A stretch of DNA of 64,000 nt, taken from NCBI GenBank assembly GCA_944391215.1, contig CALXSR010000052.1, forward strand, positions 1 through 64,000, given 5' to 3'. Shown in pieces: positions 15,505 through 21,794 of this stretch (the stretch's first letter is position 1; each line of letters begins with the position of its first letter). This DNA comes from an uncultured Clostridia bacterium (GTDB lineage: Bacteria; Bacillota; Dehalobacteriia; UBA4068; CALXSR01). The notes under the pieces are model-generated. The model was not told where the DNA came from and did not search any database. It saw only the letters and a list, made by a program, of their open reading frames with translations. A program made the translations under genes and the position numbers.

Positions 15505-16941
15505 CTACATAATAGGAGTAAAAATGCGGAAGAATTTTTCTGCAACCCGGGCCCGCCAGCTTCTTTTGGCAAAAGCTTCATAATCCAATTCCTGACAATG
15601 CTGTAAATCCTCCGCAAAAATAGCGGTATTCTTTTCAGCAAATTGTTTATCATAGAAAAAGGCGCAAACCTCATCATTGATTTCCAAACTACGCGTGTCA
15701 AAATTTACCGAACCAATACAAGTTAACACATCGTCAATTAACATCGTTTTAGAGTGTAAATAACCATTATATTTATAAATTTTCACCCCATATTTTACCA
15801 GTTGCTCAATATAGTAATTGGTGACAGGATTTAAATATACGCTGGGAATAATGCCAGCAATCATAATTTTAATTTCCACCCCAGAAGCAGCGATTACTTT
15901 TAAGGCGTCTAAAATAGAATTATCCGGTATAATATATGGTGTTTGCATCAAAATGCTGTTTTTAGCGGAAGTAAGCATCCGCAAATAACTCAACTTAATC
16001 GCATCTTTATCAGAATCAATACCGCCAGTAATATACTGGCAATATAAAGTATTCGTAACTTGGTGTGCTGGAAAATAACTGGGCGCCTTTTCTAATTCCA
16101 ATTCAATAACTTTTTTACGACACATAGCAATCCAGTCCGTTAAAAAGATATATTGCAATGCATAAACGCCATCGCCAACAACCCGCATATGGGTATCGCG
16201 CCAAGGCGTTTTAATTTTATGCTCACTAATAAAGTCTTTGCCGATATTCATTCCACCGGTATAACCGATTTCGCCGTCAATGACTACTATTTTACGATGA
16301 TTACGGAAATGAGATCCAAAGGGTCTGGTTTTTTTGACTACACCGCCAGCTTCCCGCAATGGTCGAAACAAAGAGGCGGGCGTCATTAAGCAACCAAAGC
16401 CATCGATAATAACTTTCACATCCACCCCCGCTTTGGCACGTTCAGTCAAAATGGCCGCCAGTTCTTTTCCAACTTTATCCGCGTCAATCGCATAATATTC
16501 TATATGAATACTTTTTTGGGCTTGACGCATATCAGCAAACATAGCAGCATATTTATCTTGGCCCCAACAAAAAATTTCCACGTCATTTTTCTGCATCAAT
16601 AAGCTTTCACTATAATTCAAATTAAAGCGAATCACGGAAGCTGTTTCTGCAAACTCTGCTTCCGAAAAATTACCGCTCTTGCTTAAATTTCTGGCATAGA
16701 GCACCTGTTTTCTTACATATTCTGCATAAACTACTTTTAATTTTTTATTTTTCCGCCAATAGCTTAACTTGTAATTAATGGTATTCCCTAAAACTAAGTA
16801 AATCACCATACCAACAACAGGAAATACCATTAAAATAAAAACCCATAAAATCGCTTCTTCGGGTTTTTTATATTCAATAAAAACCACAGAAATCATAAAA
16901 AACAAGTTTAATAATAACAAAATGAAAGCAATAAGCAGCAA
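15505..16941 (-). CDS. cls: Cardiolipin synthase (phospholipase D family), copy 1
   Basis: Membrane enzyme that transfers a phosphatidyl group between phosphatidylglycerols to make cardiolipin. Two N-terminal transmembrane segments with EYKKPEEAILWVF between or after them are followed by two HKD catalytic motifs, HFRNHRKIVVIDGEIGYTGG and YLHSKTMLIDDVLTCIGS. Length is about 478 residues, normal for the family. A GTG at 16950 abuts the AGGAG ribosome site and cannot be used; the TTG at 16941, 7 nt after it, is the likely start. The frameshifted copy 2 at 17048-18464 shows the same arrangement. Confidence 0.9.
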   Translation of the reverse strand: MLLIAFILLLLNLFFMISVVFIEYKKPEEAILWVFILMVFPVVGMVIYLVLGNTINYKLSYWRKNKKLKVVYAEYVRKQVLYARNLSKSGNFSEAEFAETASVIRFNLNYSESLLMQKNDVEIFCWGQDKYAAMFADMRQAQKSIHIEYYAIDADKVGKELAAILTERAKAGVDVKVIIDGFGCLMTPASLFRPLREAGGVVKKTRPFGSHFRNHRKIVVIDGEIGYTGGMNIGKDFISEHKIKTPWRDTHMRVVGDGVYALQYIFLTDWIAMCRKKVIELELEKAPSYFPAHQVTNTLYCQYITGGIDSDKDAIKLSYLRMLTSAKNSILMQTPYIIPDNSILDALKVIAASGVEIKIMIAGIIPSVYLNPVTNYYIEQLVKYGVKIYKYNGYLHSKTMLIDDVLTCIGSVNFDTRSLEINDEVCAFFYDKQFAEKNTAIFAEDLQHCQELDYEAFAKRSWRARVAEKFFRIFTPIM

Positions 16942-17017
16942 ATATAACACTCCTATTAGATTGTTTTATTATTATTTCGGCAAATTTTTTCTTTTATCCT
17001 TTCTTTTTCTAAGAATA

Positions 17018-17047: not shown

Positions 17048-18464
17048 TTATAACAATGGAGCAAAAATACGACACAGTTTTTCACTGGCATGGGCTCGCC
17101 AACTTCTTTTCGCAAAAGCATTGTAATCTAGTTCCGAACAGTGATTTAAATCTTCCCGAAACAAAGAAGCATTATATTGCGTAAAGTTTTTATCGTAAAA
17201 GAAAATACAAACCTCATCGTTTACCTGCAAACTACGTGTATCAAAATTAGCAGAACCAATACAGCAAACATCATCGTCCACTACCAAAGTTTTGGCATGC
17301 AAATAACCATGATAACGATATATTTTTGCTCCGTATTTCACTAACTCATCAATATAATAATTATTGATTGGATCCAAATAAAATTGCAAAGTACCAGAAA
17401 GCATTACTATAACTTCTATCCCGGAAGAAGCCAATACTTTTAAAGCGTCCAAAACAGTATTATCCGGAATGATATAAGGCGTTTGAATCCATATTCGTTT
17501 TCTAGCTGACATGATCATTTTTAGATAACTCATTTTAATATATTCTTTATCGGTATCAATACCGCCGGTGATATATTGGCTATATAAAACAGTTTGTACA
17601 TTATGAGGCGGAAAATAAGAAGTGATTTTTCTCATTTCTAGTTTTACTGTTTTTTTTACGACTCATGGCAATCCAGTCCGTTAAAAAAATATACTGTAAA
17701 GCATAAACGCCATCGCCTCTCATTTTTATATGCGTATCACGCCAAGGACTTCTTATTTTTACTTCGCTTAAATAAGGAATCCCAATATTCATTCCACCAG
17801 TATAACCAATTTCCCCATCAATGACCACTATTTTGCGATGATTACGAAAATGCGTCCCAAAAGGTTTGCTTCTTTTTACTATACCACCCGCTTCGCGTAA
17901 AGGCCGAAACAAAGAATTGGGCGCTTTTAAACAACCGAACCCATCCACTATTACTTTCACATCAACACCATTTTGAGCGCGTTCTGTCAAGATACTGATT
18001 AGCTCTTTTCCCACTTTATCAGGGTCTATAGCATAATATTCTACATGAATACTTTTTTGCGCTTGGCGCATTGCAGCAAACATATCAGCATATTTTTGCT
18101 GCCCCCAGCAAAATACCGCTACTTCATTTTTCTTCATTAAAATACTATCGCTATAATTTAAATTAAAACGGACCATGGAAGAGCCAATGCTATTCGTCCC
18201 TAAGTTCGGTACCTCCTGTAACGATTGTATTTGCTTTTGCAACACCTCAGCATAAGCTTTTTTTAGCTCTTTATTTTTACGCCAATAAGATAACTTTAAA
18301 CGAAGCGTATTGCCGAAAACAGCATAAAGAATCATCCCTAGTAAAGGGAAAACCAATAAGACAAAAACCCACAAAATTGCTTCTTCTGGTTTTTTATATT
18401 CAATAAATACCACAGAAATCATAAAAAAGATATTTAATAAAAAAAGGAAAAGCATAATAAGCAA
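17048..18464 (-). pseudogene. cls: Cardiolipin synthase copy 2, interrupted by a frameshift in an A8 tract
   Basis: Two overlapping fragments together make one full-length cardiolipin synthase closely similar to copy 1. The first runs from 18464 to a stop near 17601 and holds the two membrane segments and the first HKD motif (HFRNHRKIVVIDGEIGYTGG). The second, readable from about 17635 down to 17048, holds the second HKD motif (YLHAKTLVVDD). The frame breaks in a run of eight A (minus strand; T8 at 17650-17657). Removing one A gives R-K-K-T-V-K-L-E, in register with copy 1. The probable start is a TTG at 18464, 7 nt after AGGGG. The cause could be a true mutation, slippage during expression, phase variation, or a homopolymer sequencing error; both halves otherwise look well preserved. 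Confidence 0.88.
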
Positions 18465-18503
18465 AACCAACACCCCTCATTTGCTTTTATTGGCTGCTTT
18501 TTC

Positions 18504-19452: not shown

Positions 19453-19480
19453 CAAAAAAGAAGAGATTTACATCTCTTCT
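19453..19480 (-). terminator. Terminator of the diacylglycerol kinase-like gene
   Basis: Perfect 8-bp stem GAAGAGAT/ATCTCTTC with a 4-nt loop and six T on the minus strand. The stop codon of the gene (19468-19470) lies in the loop. Confidence 0.9.
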
Positions 19481-20409
19481 TCCATTTCCTCTTCTGCTAA
19501 AAATTGTTCTTCATTATGATAAAAGGACGGCGCCAATACCTTTATCTTTTGAGGTAATACTTTTACATGGAAAGGGAGTTTTGGGCCCTTTTCCCCATCT
19601 AAATCTGTCGCAATCATTTTTTCGCAAAACACGTGAACCTCTTTGGTTTTAAAACTTAGTATATTTTTATTATAAAAATGTCTCCCGTTTAAAATATCAA
19701 AAAAAATCACTGGCAGCTCCACCAAAGAACATTTTTTAAAAGCTAACACATCTAAAAGGCCATCTTCAATTGAAGATTGTATCCCGATTTTACTAAATCC
19801 ACCCGCAGATTGTCCATTTAAAATCAACATAAAAAAGATTTCTCCAGCGAAATGGCATTCCGCGCTTTCAATTTGCACAAAAGAAGTTTCCATGCGCCCC
19901 AATTCTTCTAAACCGCGCAAATAATAAGCCATAGGCCCCAATAAACTTTTAATGCTATTTCCGGTTTTTTGGCTGACATCTATCAAAAAGCCTAAACTAG
20001 CGACATTGATAAAATAGGTATCATTACACAAGCCCACATCACTTTCTATTACATGGTCTTGTAAATAGGTTTCGGTTAATTGCCCAAAAGGCTTGCCTCC
20101 TGTAAACTGCCGCGCATAATCATTACAAGTGCCCACCGGATAAATACCCAACGGTAAATCAATTTCATATTTTAGCATACAGTTAATAACCTGGTGCAGC
20201 GTACCGTCTCCCCCTGCTACCAGTATTTTGCAATACGATTCTTTTTCTTTCTGAAATTGCATAAAAAACGATTCTAAAGAGCTACCTTGTTCCATTCGAT
20301 AAAAAACCAGCTGTAACTGTTTTTTTTGAAAAGCAGCAATCAGTTCGTCTAAAGAATCCACAAATTTGCGATTTCCGGCATAAGGATTATAAATCACTAA
20401 AACTTTCAT
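19468..20409 (-). CDS. Diacylglycerol kinase catalytic-domain protein (DgkB/YegS type)
   Basis: 313-residue lipid kinase-like protein. N-terminal KVLVIYNPYAGNRK is the first phosphate-binding loop and ILVAGGDGTLHQVINCML is the GGDGT motif; LPLGIYPVGTCNDYAR follows as in lipid kinases. I chose the ATG at 20409, preceded by GAGGGTTG. Probable role is recycling of diacylglycerol released by lipid or teichoic acid metabolism, which would fit the adjacent phospholipid enzymes (two cardiolipin synthases), but the substrate is not proven. The C-terminal acidic tail (EEQFLAEEEMEEEM) is unusual. Confidence 0.88.
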   Translation of the reverse strand: MKVLVIYNPYAGNRKFVDSLDELIAAFQKKQLQLVFYRMEQGSSLESFFMQFQKEKESYCKILVAGGDGTLHQVINCMLKYEIDLPLGIYPVGTCNDYARQFTGGKPFGQLTETYLQDHVIESDVGLCNDTYFINVASLGFLIDVSQKTGNSIKSLLGPMAYYLRGLEELGRMETSFVQIESAECHFAGEIFFMLILNGQSAGGFSKIGIQSSIEDGLLDVLAFKKCSLVELPVIFFDILNGRHFYNKNILSFKTKEVHVFCEKMIATDLDGEKGPKLPFHVKVLPQKIKVLAPSFYHNEEQFLAEEEMEEEM

Positions 20410-20434
20410 AAACAACCCTCGAATCACACAAAAA

Positions 20435-20462
20435 TTGACAAGCTCATATATTATTCCATAAA
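20435..20462 (+). promoter_or_regulatory. Possible promoter for the Cys-rich microprotein gene
   Basis: A perfect TTGACA at 20435-20440 is followed after 16 bases by CATAAA (4 of 6 matches). A transcript starting near 20469 would carry a small hairpin (CGTCT/AGACG, 20479-20495) before the ribosome site. Confidence 0.4.
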
Positions 20463-20531
20463 GCGTTTTATTTTTTCTCGTCTATAAAAAAGACGCAAAC
20501 AAAACTAAAAAATAATTAGGTGGTGAACGAT

Positions 20532-20645
20532 ATGGCTTGTTGTTGTGTACCAACTTATTGCTATATTCCTTGTTACTGTTACTACTATACCTATACCCCT
20601 TGCTGTTGTACTTGCTGCAGACCTAGGTGTTGCAGGTGCTGGTAA
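20532..20645 (+). CDS. 37-residue cysteine/tyrosine-rich microprotein
   Basis: A short reading frame with a good ribosome site (AGGTGGTGA, 6-8 nt before the ATG) and its own intrinsic terminator 6 bases after the stop. The product has 14 cysteines (positions 3, 4, 5, 10, 14, 16, 24, 25, 26, 28, 29, 33, 34, 36) and 7 tyrosines (9, 11, 15, 17, 18, 19, 21) in 37 residues. It falls into an N-terminal Cys/Tyr half and a C-terminal half with the CCCTCC and RPRCCRCW elements. There is no signal peptide. I do not recognise the family. By composition it could be a metallothionein-like metal binder, a structural or coat-type peptide cross-linked through Cys and Tyr, or a precursor of a modified peptide. 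The downstream methyltransferase and C-GCAxxG-C-C genes are on the same strand but beyond the terminator. Confidence 0.75.
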   Translation: MACCCVPTYCYIPCYCYYYTYTPCCCTCCRPRCCRCW

Positions 20646-20651
20646 AAGAAT

Positions 20652-20682
20652 GGGAGCGTATCTACGCTCCCTATTTTTTTTT
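20652..20682 (+). terminator. Strong intrinsic terminator of the microprotein gene
   Basis: GGGAGCG/CGCTCCC stem with a 6-nt loop (extendable by TA pairs) followed by a long T run. It shows that the 114-bp frame is a separate short transcription unit. Confidence 0.92.
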
Positions 20683-20737
20683 CTTCTTTTTACTGCTATA
20701 CTAAAATAAAAAGAAATAATAAAAAGGAGTTTTTCCT

Positions 20738-21394
20738 TTGTCTTCTTGTTTCATTTACGCCAATGAGCAAATTGCCAAATATTTTTCTTATCAAATGCAT
20801 CCAGGTGGGTTGGAATTATTACAAAAGGCCTTGCCTTCCTTGCCATTACCGGCACAAGCAAACGTTTTAGATATTGGCTGTGGCTATGGAGAAACTTTGG
20901 CCTTCTTACAAGAAAACTATGCAATCCAAGCAATCGGTCTGGAAAAGGAGCAGGCAATTTTACAGGTTGCCCAAAAAAAACATCCAAAAGTACAATTTTT
21001 ACAAGTGGATTTACAGGATTCTCCTTTCCCTGTTAACAATCAGGACTGCATCATCGCGGAATGTATTTTCTCTTTATTGGACAAGCCGAAAACTGTGATA
21101 GAGGCAAGTTTTCATGCTTTAAAACCGGATGGATTCCTTTATATCAGCGATTTATATTTCACCCAAGAAGGAAATTACCCTGCCCATTTTTTGACCCATA
21201 CCGAGTGGCAAAAAATGTTACAAGCATGTGGATTTACCCTGCACTCATTTACCGATCATAAAAAAGAATTAACTCAATTTTTAATAAAAATAATTATGGC
21301 TGGTGCCCAAAAAGAAGATTTTTGTCCCGATTTCTTACAATATAAAAATATAAGCTATTGTTCTATCATCGCCAAAAAAGAAAGGAGATTATAA
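20738..21394 (+). CDS. SAM-dependent methyltransferase (resembles DVU_1556-type)
   Basis: Class I methyltransferase of 218 residues. Motif I is VLDIGCGYGETL (about residues 43-54), with an acidic residue in GLEKEQAI as motif II, and IIAECIFSLLDKP and LKPDGFLYISDLYF as the later strands. The start is a TTG at 20738, 8 nt after AAGGAG. It is followed after one base by the C-GCAxxG-C-C gene, so they form a two-gene operon. The pairing of this methyltransferase type with a C-GCAxxG-C-C protein recalls the DVU_1555/DVU_1556 neighbourhood of Desulfovibrio, an uncharacterised system; this assignment is from memory and unverified. The substrate is unknown. Confidence 0.82.
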   Translation: MSSCFIYANEQIAKYFSYQMHPGGLELLQKALPSLPLPAQANVLDIGCGYGETLAFLQENYAIQAIGLEKEQAILQVAQKKHPKVQFLQVDLQDSPFPVNNQDCIIAECIFSLLDKPKTVIEASFHALKPDGFLYISDLYFTQEGNYPAHFLTHTEWQKMLQACGFTLHSFTDHKKELTQFLIKIIMAGAQKEDFCPDFLQYKNISYCSIIAKKERRL

Positions 21395-21395
21395 C

Positions 21396-21794
21396 ATGAC
21401 AACAGATCAAGAAAGAATACGTGAATTACGACAAGAAGGATATTGTTGCGCACAAGTTATGGTAGCAATGGGGTTAGAAAAATTAGGCGAAGAAAACCCA
21501 CAAATGATCGAAGCGGTTTCTCCCCTTTGTGCCGGCGCACGCAGCGGTCTTTTATGTGGCGCTGTCAGCGGGGCCTGTATCATGTTCGGTTTATACGATA
21601 AGCAACTTGCCAATCAAAAAATGGTACCGGAGTTTATGGCGCATATCAAAGAAGAATTTGACGAAACTTACGGAGGAACCGACTGCCTATGCATTTTAAA
21701 AGGGGATATGCAAAATCGTTTTCAAACTTGTCCATCTTTAATTGAGCGTGTTTATGAAATTGCCGCCCAAGTTTTGGAAGCCAACGGTTTTTAA
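21396..21794 (+). CDS. C-GCAxxG-C-C family protein (putative redox/metal cysteine protein)
   Basis: 132-residue protein with the cysteine pattern that names the family: a CCAQ pair near residue 17, then LCAGARSGLLCGAVSGACIMFGLY, a GGTDCLC segment and a final TCPSLI. Most members are annotated as putative redox or metal-binding proteins without known reaction. AAAGGAG lies 8 nt before the ATG. It is translationally close-coupled to the methyltransferase upstream (one base between stop and start) and overlaps the convergent pgeF stop by 3 bases. Together with the Cys-rich microprotein it makes a cysteine-heavy locus. Confidence 0.88.
   Translation: MTTDQERIRELRQEGYCCAQVMVAMGLEKLGEENPQMIEAVSPLCAGARSGLLCGAVSGACIMFGLYDKQLANQKMVPEFMAHIKEEFDETYGGTDCLCILKGDMQNRFQTCPSLIERVYEIAAQVLEANGF

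Follow-up and report, generated by a model that had tools for sequence, protein, structure and literature searches.

What does a bacterium make from a 37-codon reading frame whose product, MACCCVPTYCYIPCYCYYYTYTPCCCTCCRPRCCRCW, contains 14 Cys and 7 Tyr (38% and 19% of its residues; 57% together)? The frame lies at 20532-20645, on the plus strand, of the window – the whole 64-kb stretch of DNA from an uncultured Clostridia bacterium that was analyzed here – and both its length and its composition are as given in the initial annotation. That annotation took the locus for a compact unit whose apparent purpose is the expression of an undescribed Cys/Tyr peptide, and guessed that the product is a metal binder, a structural cross-linked peptide, or the precursor of a modified peptide.

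Here, we examine the reading frame, its expression signals, its neighbors, and its possible relatives. The compact unit stands, with a ribosome site, a promoter match and a terminator surrounding a frame whose product matches no family. With moderate confidence we interpret the product as a Cys/Tyr-rich structural microprotein of the spore envelope, made late in the mother cell and working by the principle of disulfide cross-linking.

Results

A Cys/Tyr-rich reading frame behind a strong ribosome site

The gene was delimited by ORF search, translation, frame comparison and shuffling, and runs from an ATG at 20532 to a stop codon at 20643-20645. Its product has CC and CxC spacings, eight aromatic residues (7 Tyr and 1 Trp) and a Cys-Trp C-terminus. 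By window shuffles the ORF is not a chance occurrence: when the window was dinucleotide-shuffled 60 times, no copy contained a frame of at least 30 aa with at least 25% Cys, and the highest value reached was 21%. The next richest ORFs in 153 kb of the genome (the window plus five other stretches) have 25% Cys (8/32 and 6/24 residues), and the highest Cys content among 115 sampled ORFs of at least 180 aa is 8.2%. An alternative in-frame GTG at 20520 gives a 41-aa product, but the ATG is better placed because it lies 8 nt behind AGGTGG (20518-20523, plus strand). This is the good ribosome site of the annotation, with an anti-Shine-Dalgarno pairing of -10.1 kcal/mol that ranks third beside 12 other window starts picked by hand.

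Runs of TGY and TAY codons can be wrong-frame readings of repeats, as we saw among pattern matches in other sequences, and the frames of this ORF were therefore compared. Judged by synonymous codons, the frame closest to the usage of the genome among the six is the Cys/Tyr one (z -2.1, the others -3.4 to -6.1), although even its fit is poor on an absolute scale; TAC, for example, is used in 3/7 of its Tyr codons versus 167/1476 in sampled genes. A score of full codon usage, in which amino-acid make-up also counts, ranks the Cys/Tyr frame (-171.6) below the two other forward frames (-157.8 for each). Both encode hydrophobic peptides; one starts at a GTG (20545) without a ribosome site, continues across the terminator as far as 20709, and the other starts at a TTG (20537) 13 nt behind AGGTGG. 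The purine content of the Cys/Tyr ORF is 0.39, and among 1081 coding windows of 111 nt just 3% are that low; this pyrimidine richness is partly forced by the TGY and TAY codons, and genes of species with runaway transcription are reported to be purine-rich (PMC13323073). A search for EF-Tu as a codon-usage reference gave no match over the cut-off. The Cys/Tyr frame thus has the best-placed start, which falls short of proving translation.

A terminator at the distance usual for genes

An intrinsic terminator occupies 20652-20682 (plus strand), with a stem at 20652-20671 of 8 pairs, 6 of them GC, followed by TATTTTTTTTT in a T tract that extends to 20682. It starts 6 nt after the stop codon, and is the strong terminator that had been annotated there. 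Such a gap is ordinary for genes of this genome: a simple terminator follows the stop in 28 of 115 sampled ORFs of at least 180 aa, at distances of 1 to 70 nt, with a gap of at most 5 nt in five of these 28 and at most 10 nt in nine. RNA folding scores are no better than those of shuffles when the terminator is left out (z -0.77 and -0.28) and reach z -3.67 when it is included. At the Rfam gathering threshold nothing matches the peptide unit, the only match in the window being a tRNA elsewhere; relaxed searching returns 19 matches on 20400-20760, none scoring above roughly half of its cut-off.

These data bear on whether the locus codes for protein at all, or is instead a small RNA or a chance frame within a terminator-bounded unit. 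The low purine content, the two forward frames that lead by full codon usage and the lack of any homologue (see below) would suit a non-coding unit; against it are the strong ribosome site at the ATG, the first rank of this frame by synonymous codons, the gene-like distance from stop to terminator, the unremarkable folding of the RNA ahead of the terminator, and the empty Rfam search of the unit at gathering threshold. We regard a non-protein origin as unlikely.

Neighboring genes and the leader-peptide alternative

Upstream and divergent from the ORF is a lipid-kinase gene (19468-20409, minus strand). Downstream, at 20738-21794 on the plus strand, lie a methyltransferase gene of the DVU_1556 family (NF045667) and a C-GCAxxG-C-C gene of the DVU_1555 family, both barely over their NCBIfam cut-offs (155.6 versus 155, and 103.9 versus 103); a literature search on these locus names returned no paper. 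With PgeF, these are the four neighbors tested, and none is a recognized spore gene. Further away on the minus strand (17048-18473) are overlapping ORFs of 290 and 195 aa that by eye resemble the two halves of an intact 481-aa ORF at 15505-16950; the latter looks to be of the cardiolipin-synthase/phospholipase-D type, and the pair has the appearance of a frameshifted second copy.

The methyltransferase operon begins 55 nt after the T tract, and this order of co-directional ORF, terminator and operon is also that of a Cys-responsive leader peptide, in which the speed of ribosomes on the ORF would control the terminator ahead of the operon. Cys-rich regulatory small ORFs are reported from mycobacteria in three papers (PMC9094748, PMC4633059, PMC13236596), and simple footprint modeling indicates that a ribosome positioned on the stop codon would overlap part of the terminator's 5′ arm. 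However, an antiterminator is lacking: the strongest upstream partner of the 5′ arm pairs at -9.5 kcal/mol, versus -17.4 for the terminator, and the terminator pair tested has a modeled probability of 1.0 with a ribosome at any of codons 1 to 36, falling to 0.755 when the ribosome is at codon 37. The 6-nt gap is too small for a competing hairpin, besides being ordinary in this genome; a candidate separate promoter for the methyltransferase pair, recognized by eye and unscored, follows the terminator (extended -10 TGCTATACT, 20694-20702, plus strand); and related loci have no such leader. The ORF is like the mycobacterial polycysteine leaders in being a short Cys-rich frame ahead of other genes, but differs from them in having a tight terminator of its own and no alternative RNA structure. 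A leader-peptide role is accordingly improbable.

Related loci also bear on the suggestion that short Cys/Tyr-rich frames precede C-GCAxxG-C-C genes. At 29 other DVU_1555-family loci, no ribosome site is followed by an ORF of 20-80 aa that has 20% Cys, and there is just one 34-aa ORF, itself without such a site, so that with 0/29 the proposed link is unsupported. The methyltransferase has a match in 39 of 61 genomes, many of them only distant, and at 29 other methyltransferase-related loci (1.5 kb each side) no comparable ORF lies before the gene. The richest ORF at these loci (15 Cys in 89 aa, L018) was rejected, being an alternative-frame reading within the methyltransferase gene itself. None of the 29 loci has the lipid kinase next to the methyltransferase, while a C-GCAxxG-C-C gene is found within the fetched methyltransferase stretch at two loci (L012 and L013) and about 1.4 kb from the methyltransferase in two genomes (G008 and G013). 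The tie between the peptide and the C-GCAxxG-C-C gene is therefore probably one of position only. The methyltransferase protein has no relative in the genome_contigs or viral_contigs collections, and hence no syntenic close relative is at hand.

The NF045667 methyltransferase gene downstream of a short, Cys-rich frame also brings to mind a ribosomally made, modified peptide (RiPP), the third of the annotated guesses. No leader/core layout is visible in the peptide, no known maturase is among the four neighbors tested, and relatives of the methyltransferase occur without the peptide; we consider a RiPP precursor very unlikely.

A sigma-K-type promoter match

The annotation gave the unit its own promoter on the basis of a TTGACA upstream. 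This hexamer is present (20435-20440, plus strand), but as a sigma-A -35 element it is a weak alternative, with only a poor -10 partner (CATAAA, 20457-20462); the best sigma-A score with it is 10/12, equaled or beaten in 66 of 1500 shuffles. It falls within the spacer of a stretch that matches the sigma-K consensus mACm-N16-CATAnnnTA exactly (20425-20453, plus strand), composed of a -35 element CACA (consensus mACm, 20425-20428) and, 16 nt later, a -10 element CATATATTA (consensus CATAnnnTA, 20445-20453), and ending 78 nt before the ATG. This form of the consensus, a/cACa/c N16 CATA N3 TA, is printed in a Clostridium taeniosporum genome paper (PMC5749712), and for C. difficile another paper has AC in the -35 element marking sigma-K and ATA marking sigma-E (PMC3789822). 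There is no sigma-E match upstream of the ORF, even by a loose pattern.

An exact sigma-K match somewhere in the window is not in itself unusual. The pattern occurs once on the two strands of the 64 kb, where 0.76 matches are expected by chance, and 47 of 100 shuffled windows hold at least one; the unlikely part is that the single match falls within the 122 nt before the 37-codon ORF, as happens in 11 of 5000 shuffles of that segment. Sporulation promoters were sought only after SpoIVA had been seen in the genome, with few motifs considered, and this 0.2% should therefore be discounted by a factor of a few. Judged from the sequence, the promoter reads better as sigma-K-type (sporulation) than as a TTGACA sigma-A promoter. 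The unit can thus retain an own promoter in kind, with a different basis.

Sporulation genes and other sigma-K motifs in the genome

The host is a spore former by gene content, in that both genes searched for are present: SpoIVA (785 bits, over cut-off) is encoded on the same contig as the 37-aa ORF, and sigma-K itself is encoded in the genome (330.9 bits, over the curated cut-off). The exact sigma-K motif has 30 matches in the 1.79-Mb genome, versus 20 for the pattern read backwards. We scored a match as promoter-like if it is outside any ORF of at least 90 aa and is followed within 160 nt by a ribosome site and an ORF of at least 30 aa. Seven of the 30 sigma-K matches and one of the 20 reversed-control matches are promoter-like by these criteria, a contrast that is not significant (one-sided p 0.087; p 0.13 with 6/29 once the 37-aa gene is left out). 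Of the remaining sigma-K matches, three are intergenic without an ORF by these criteria and 20 are inside long ORFs.

The seven promoter-like matches include that of the 37-aa gene. Another precedes ytaF (TIGR02840 over cut-off), the one named sporulation gene in the set, and three of the seven targets are Cys-rich at the start or throughout. One match lies ahead of a tandem of three Cys/Gly/Asn-rich genes (95, 101 and 89 aa; L479:7987-7069, on G000:C37, minus strand), the third of which would be about 80 aa from a likelier ATG; their products match no family over cut-off, and they are possibly unrecognized spore-coat genes. A 333-aa Gly/Asn-rich ORF follows them. The other targets are a 239-aa protein with a TTG start, N-terminus LRSCYPYCAGGGCAGNCPP (start also given as LRSCYPYCAGGGCAGNC; L462:1501-2282, G000:C37:16819 onward), which has no Pfam or NCBIfam match; a 456-aa VWA-domain protein (L471:1439-69), a candidate spore-surface protein; a protein with a sub-threshold HD-domain match; and a doubtful 33-aa ORF.

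A peptide without relatives in the collections searched

The 37-aa peptide has no match in Pfam or NCBIfam (E up to 0.1), in PHROGs or among solved structures, and none in phages or plasmids (tblastn, E up to 10), the latter being weak negatives with the low-complexity filter on. Searches of 34 other genomes of the order, 42 of the class and 397 of the phylum yielded no homologue, and there is no paralogue in the peptide's own genome. In the whole-genome searches the peptide finds itself at E 1e-17 and the best other match has E 0.0039; the genome is the sole member of its family among those searched at order and class level and among the 61 screened for the methyltransferase. Nine other order-level matches, and seven of eight further phylum-level loci, prove to be interrupted or ordinary frames when read on the right strand; the eighth (L049) was viewed through the Cys/Tyr filter alone, which listed nothing for L042-L049. 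The one match with a Cys cluster (L039, E 1.6) comes from the last part of a 388-aa gene, read out of frame.

Pattern searches added no candidate among the matches listed. CCCxCCxxxCCxC occurs in at least 118 stretches of genome_contigs, and among the matches listed the longest ORF is in another frame for 119 of 126 frames and no 20-80 aa ORF stands behind a ribosome site. In viral_contigs, CYCYYYxY gave repeat-like runs (at least 121 frames, of which those with at least 5 Cys or more than 200 aa were viewed), and CCCxCCxxxCC matches, among those listed, have a longer ORF in another frame in 131 of 132 cases and no short ORF behind a ribosome site; the strict core pattern has no match there. 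A sigma-K -10 followed by MxCCC is found six times in 398 genomes, before ORFs of 7 to 109 aa unlike the 37-aa gene; this is a weak negative, with a pattern spacing of 45-75 nt that places the gene's own 78 nt outside it and with no positive control. Literature searches returned no paper on CATANNNTA with spore coat or on small Cys-rich sporulation ORFs, and the available portions of papers on Cys-rich or Tyr-rich spore proteins or small proteins name no comparable peptide.

Discussion

A sigma-K site together with 38% Cys and 19% Tyr makes the peptide fit the disulfide-layer principle of spore envelopes. The ORF, its ribosome site, the exact sigma-K consensus, the terminator and the presence of sigK and spoIVA can all be read from the DNA, and host sporulation genes, a putative sigma-K promoter and a high Cys content are what a sigma-K-dependent, Cys-rich spore-envelope protein would have. 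We propose that the mother cell, late in sporulation, would transcribe the gene from 20425-20453 by means of sigma-K RNA polymerase, yielding a single-gene mRNA of about 220 nt that ends at the terminator (20652-20682). The peptide would be translated from the ATG at 20532 and laid on the forespore surface, where its 14 Cys would cross-link through inter-chain disulfides and harden the shell. The 7 Tyr may perhaps cross-link too.

Several observations count against a spore-envelope role: the lack of any homologue, the non-significant 7/30 versus 1/20 contrast with one named sporulation family in seven, the poor codon usage, the low purine content, and the lack of a recognized spore gene nearby among the neighbors tested. 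The absence of homologues nonetheless fits such a role, because disulfide-linked spore layers are built from unrelated Cys-rich proteins in distant spore formers, as described in PMC7333573 and PMC4950064.

Could the same composition serve a vegetative cell? With 38% Cys in CC and CxC spacings, and TTGACA at 20435, the peptide might be a thiol-rich microprotein buffering metal or sulfur, in the manner of a metallothionein. Metallothioneins are Cys-rich and have few or no aromatic residues, whereas this peptide has eight; it has no match in Pfam, NCBIfam or solved structures, and the sigma-A reading is weak beside an exact sigma-K match. There is little likelihood, in our judgment, that the product is a thiol buffer. 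Among the three annotated guesses, the metal binder and the modified precursor are therefore disfavored, on the aromatic residues and on the lack of a maturase among the four neighbors, and the structural cross-linked peptide is the one that we favor, with the moderate confidence given above.

The peptide is probably an extremely small spore-envelope protein of a known principle, outside the named sequence families. Cys-rich spore-envelope proteins have a principle in common rather than a sequence (PMC7333573), and so homology searches miss them. The present case suggests that an exact sigma-K site and a tight terminator can expose a 37-residue coat candidate without relatives, and elsewhere in this genome that motif leads to the tandem Cys-rich genes as well; if the proposal holds, this is a directly testable route to small coat proteins still missing from the inventories of spore formers. 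A more speculative extension, which we put forward with considerable doubt, is that the peptide is a minimal spore 'glue' that would polymerize into a covalent matrix, joined both by disulfides and by bonds of tyrosine (dityrosine or Cys-Tyr), and that many unrelated, lineage-specific counterparts, below the usual gene-caller size, would be unannotated in other spore formers.

Several known Cys-rich systems invite comparison with the proposed spore-envelope peptide. At family-profile level (Pfam, NCBIfam, E up to 0.1) it has no sequence match to CotY/CotZ/ExsY, CdeC or CsxA. CsxA of C. sporogenes and CdeC of C. difficile are Cys-rich exosporium proteins without homology to those of Bacillus; both are much larger than 37 residues, and the peptide differs from them in being tiny and coming from a single-gene unit. 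They are reported to have 25 (PMC7333573) and 37 (PMC7677010) cysteines, respectively. The tandem Cys/Gly/Asn-rich genes of the same genome share the exact sigma-K motif and a Cys-rich product, the first of which also ends in Cys-Trp, but their proteins are Gly/Asn-rich, the second and third have a hydrophobic segment, and no alignable similarity is claimed. CotY has 15 Cys in 161 residues (PMC4950064). The peptide departs from it in that 14 of its 37 residues are Cys and many are Tyr, and in matching no Pfam or NCBIfam family. Like CotY/CotZ of B. subtilis and CotY/ExsY of the B. cereus group, however, it is a Cys-rich product of a sporulating host, and the job proposed for it, disulfide cross-linking, is that of the CotY/CotZ/ExsY coat or exosporium proteins.
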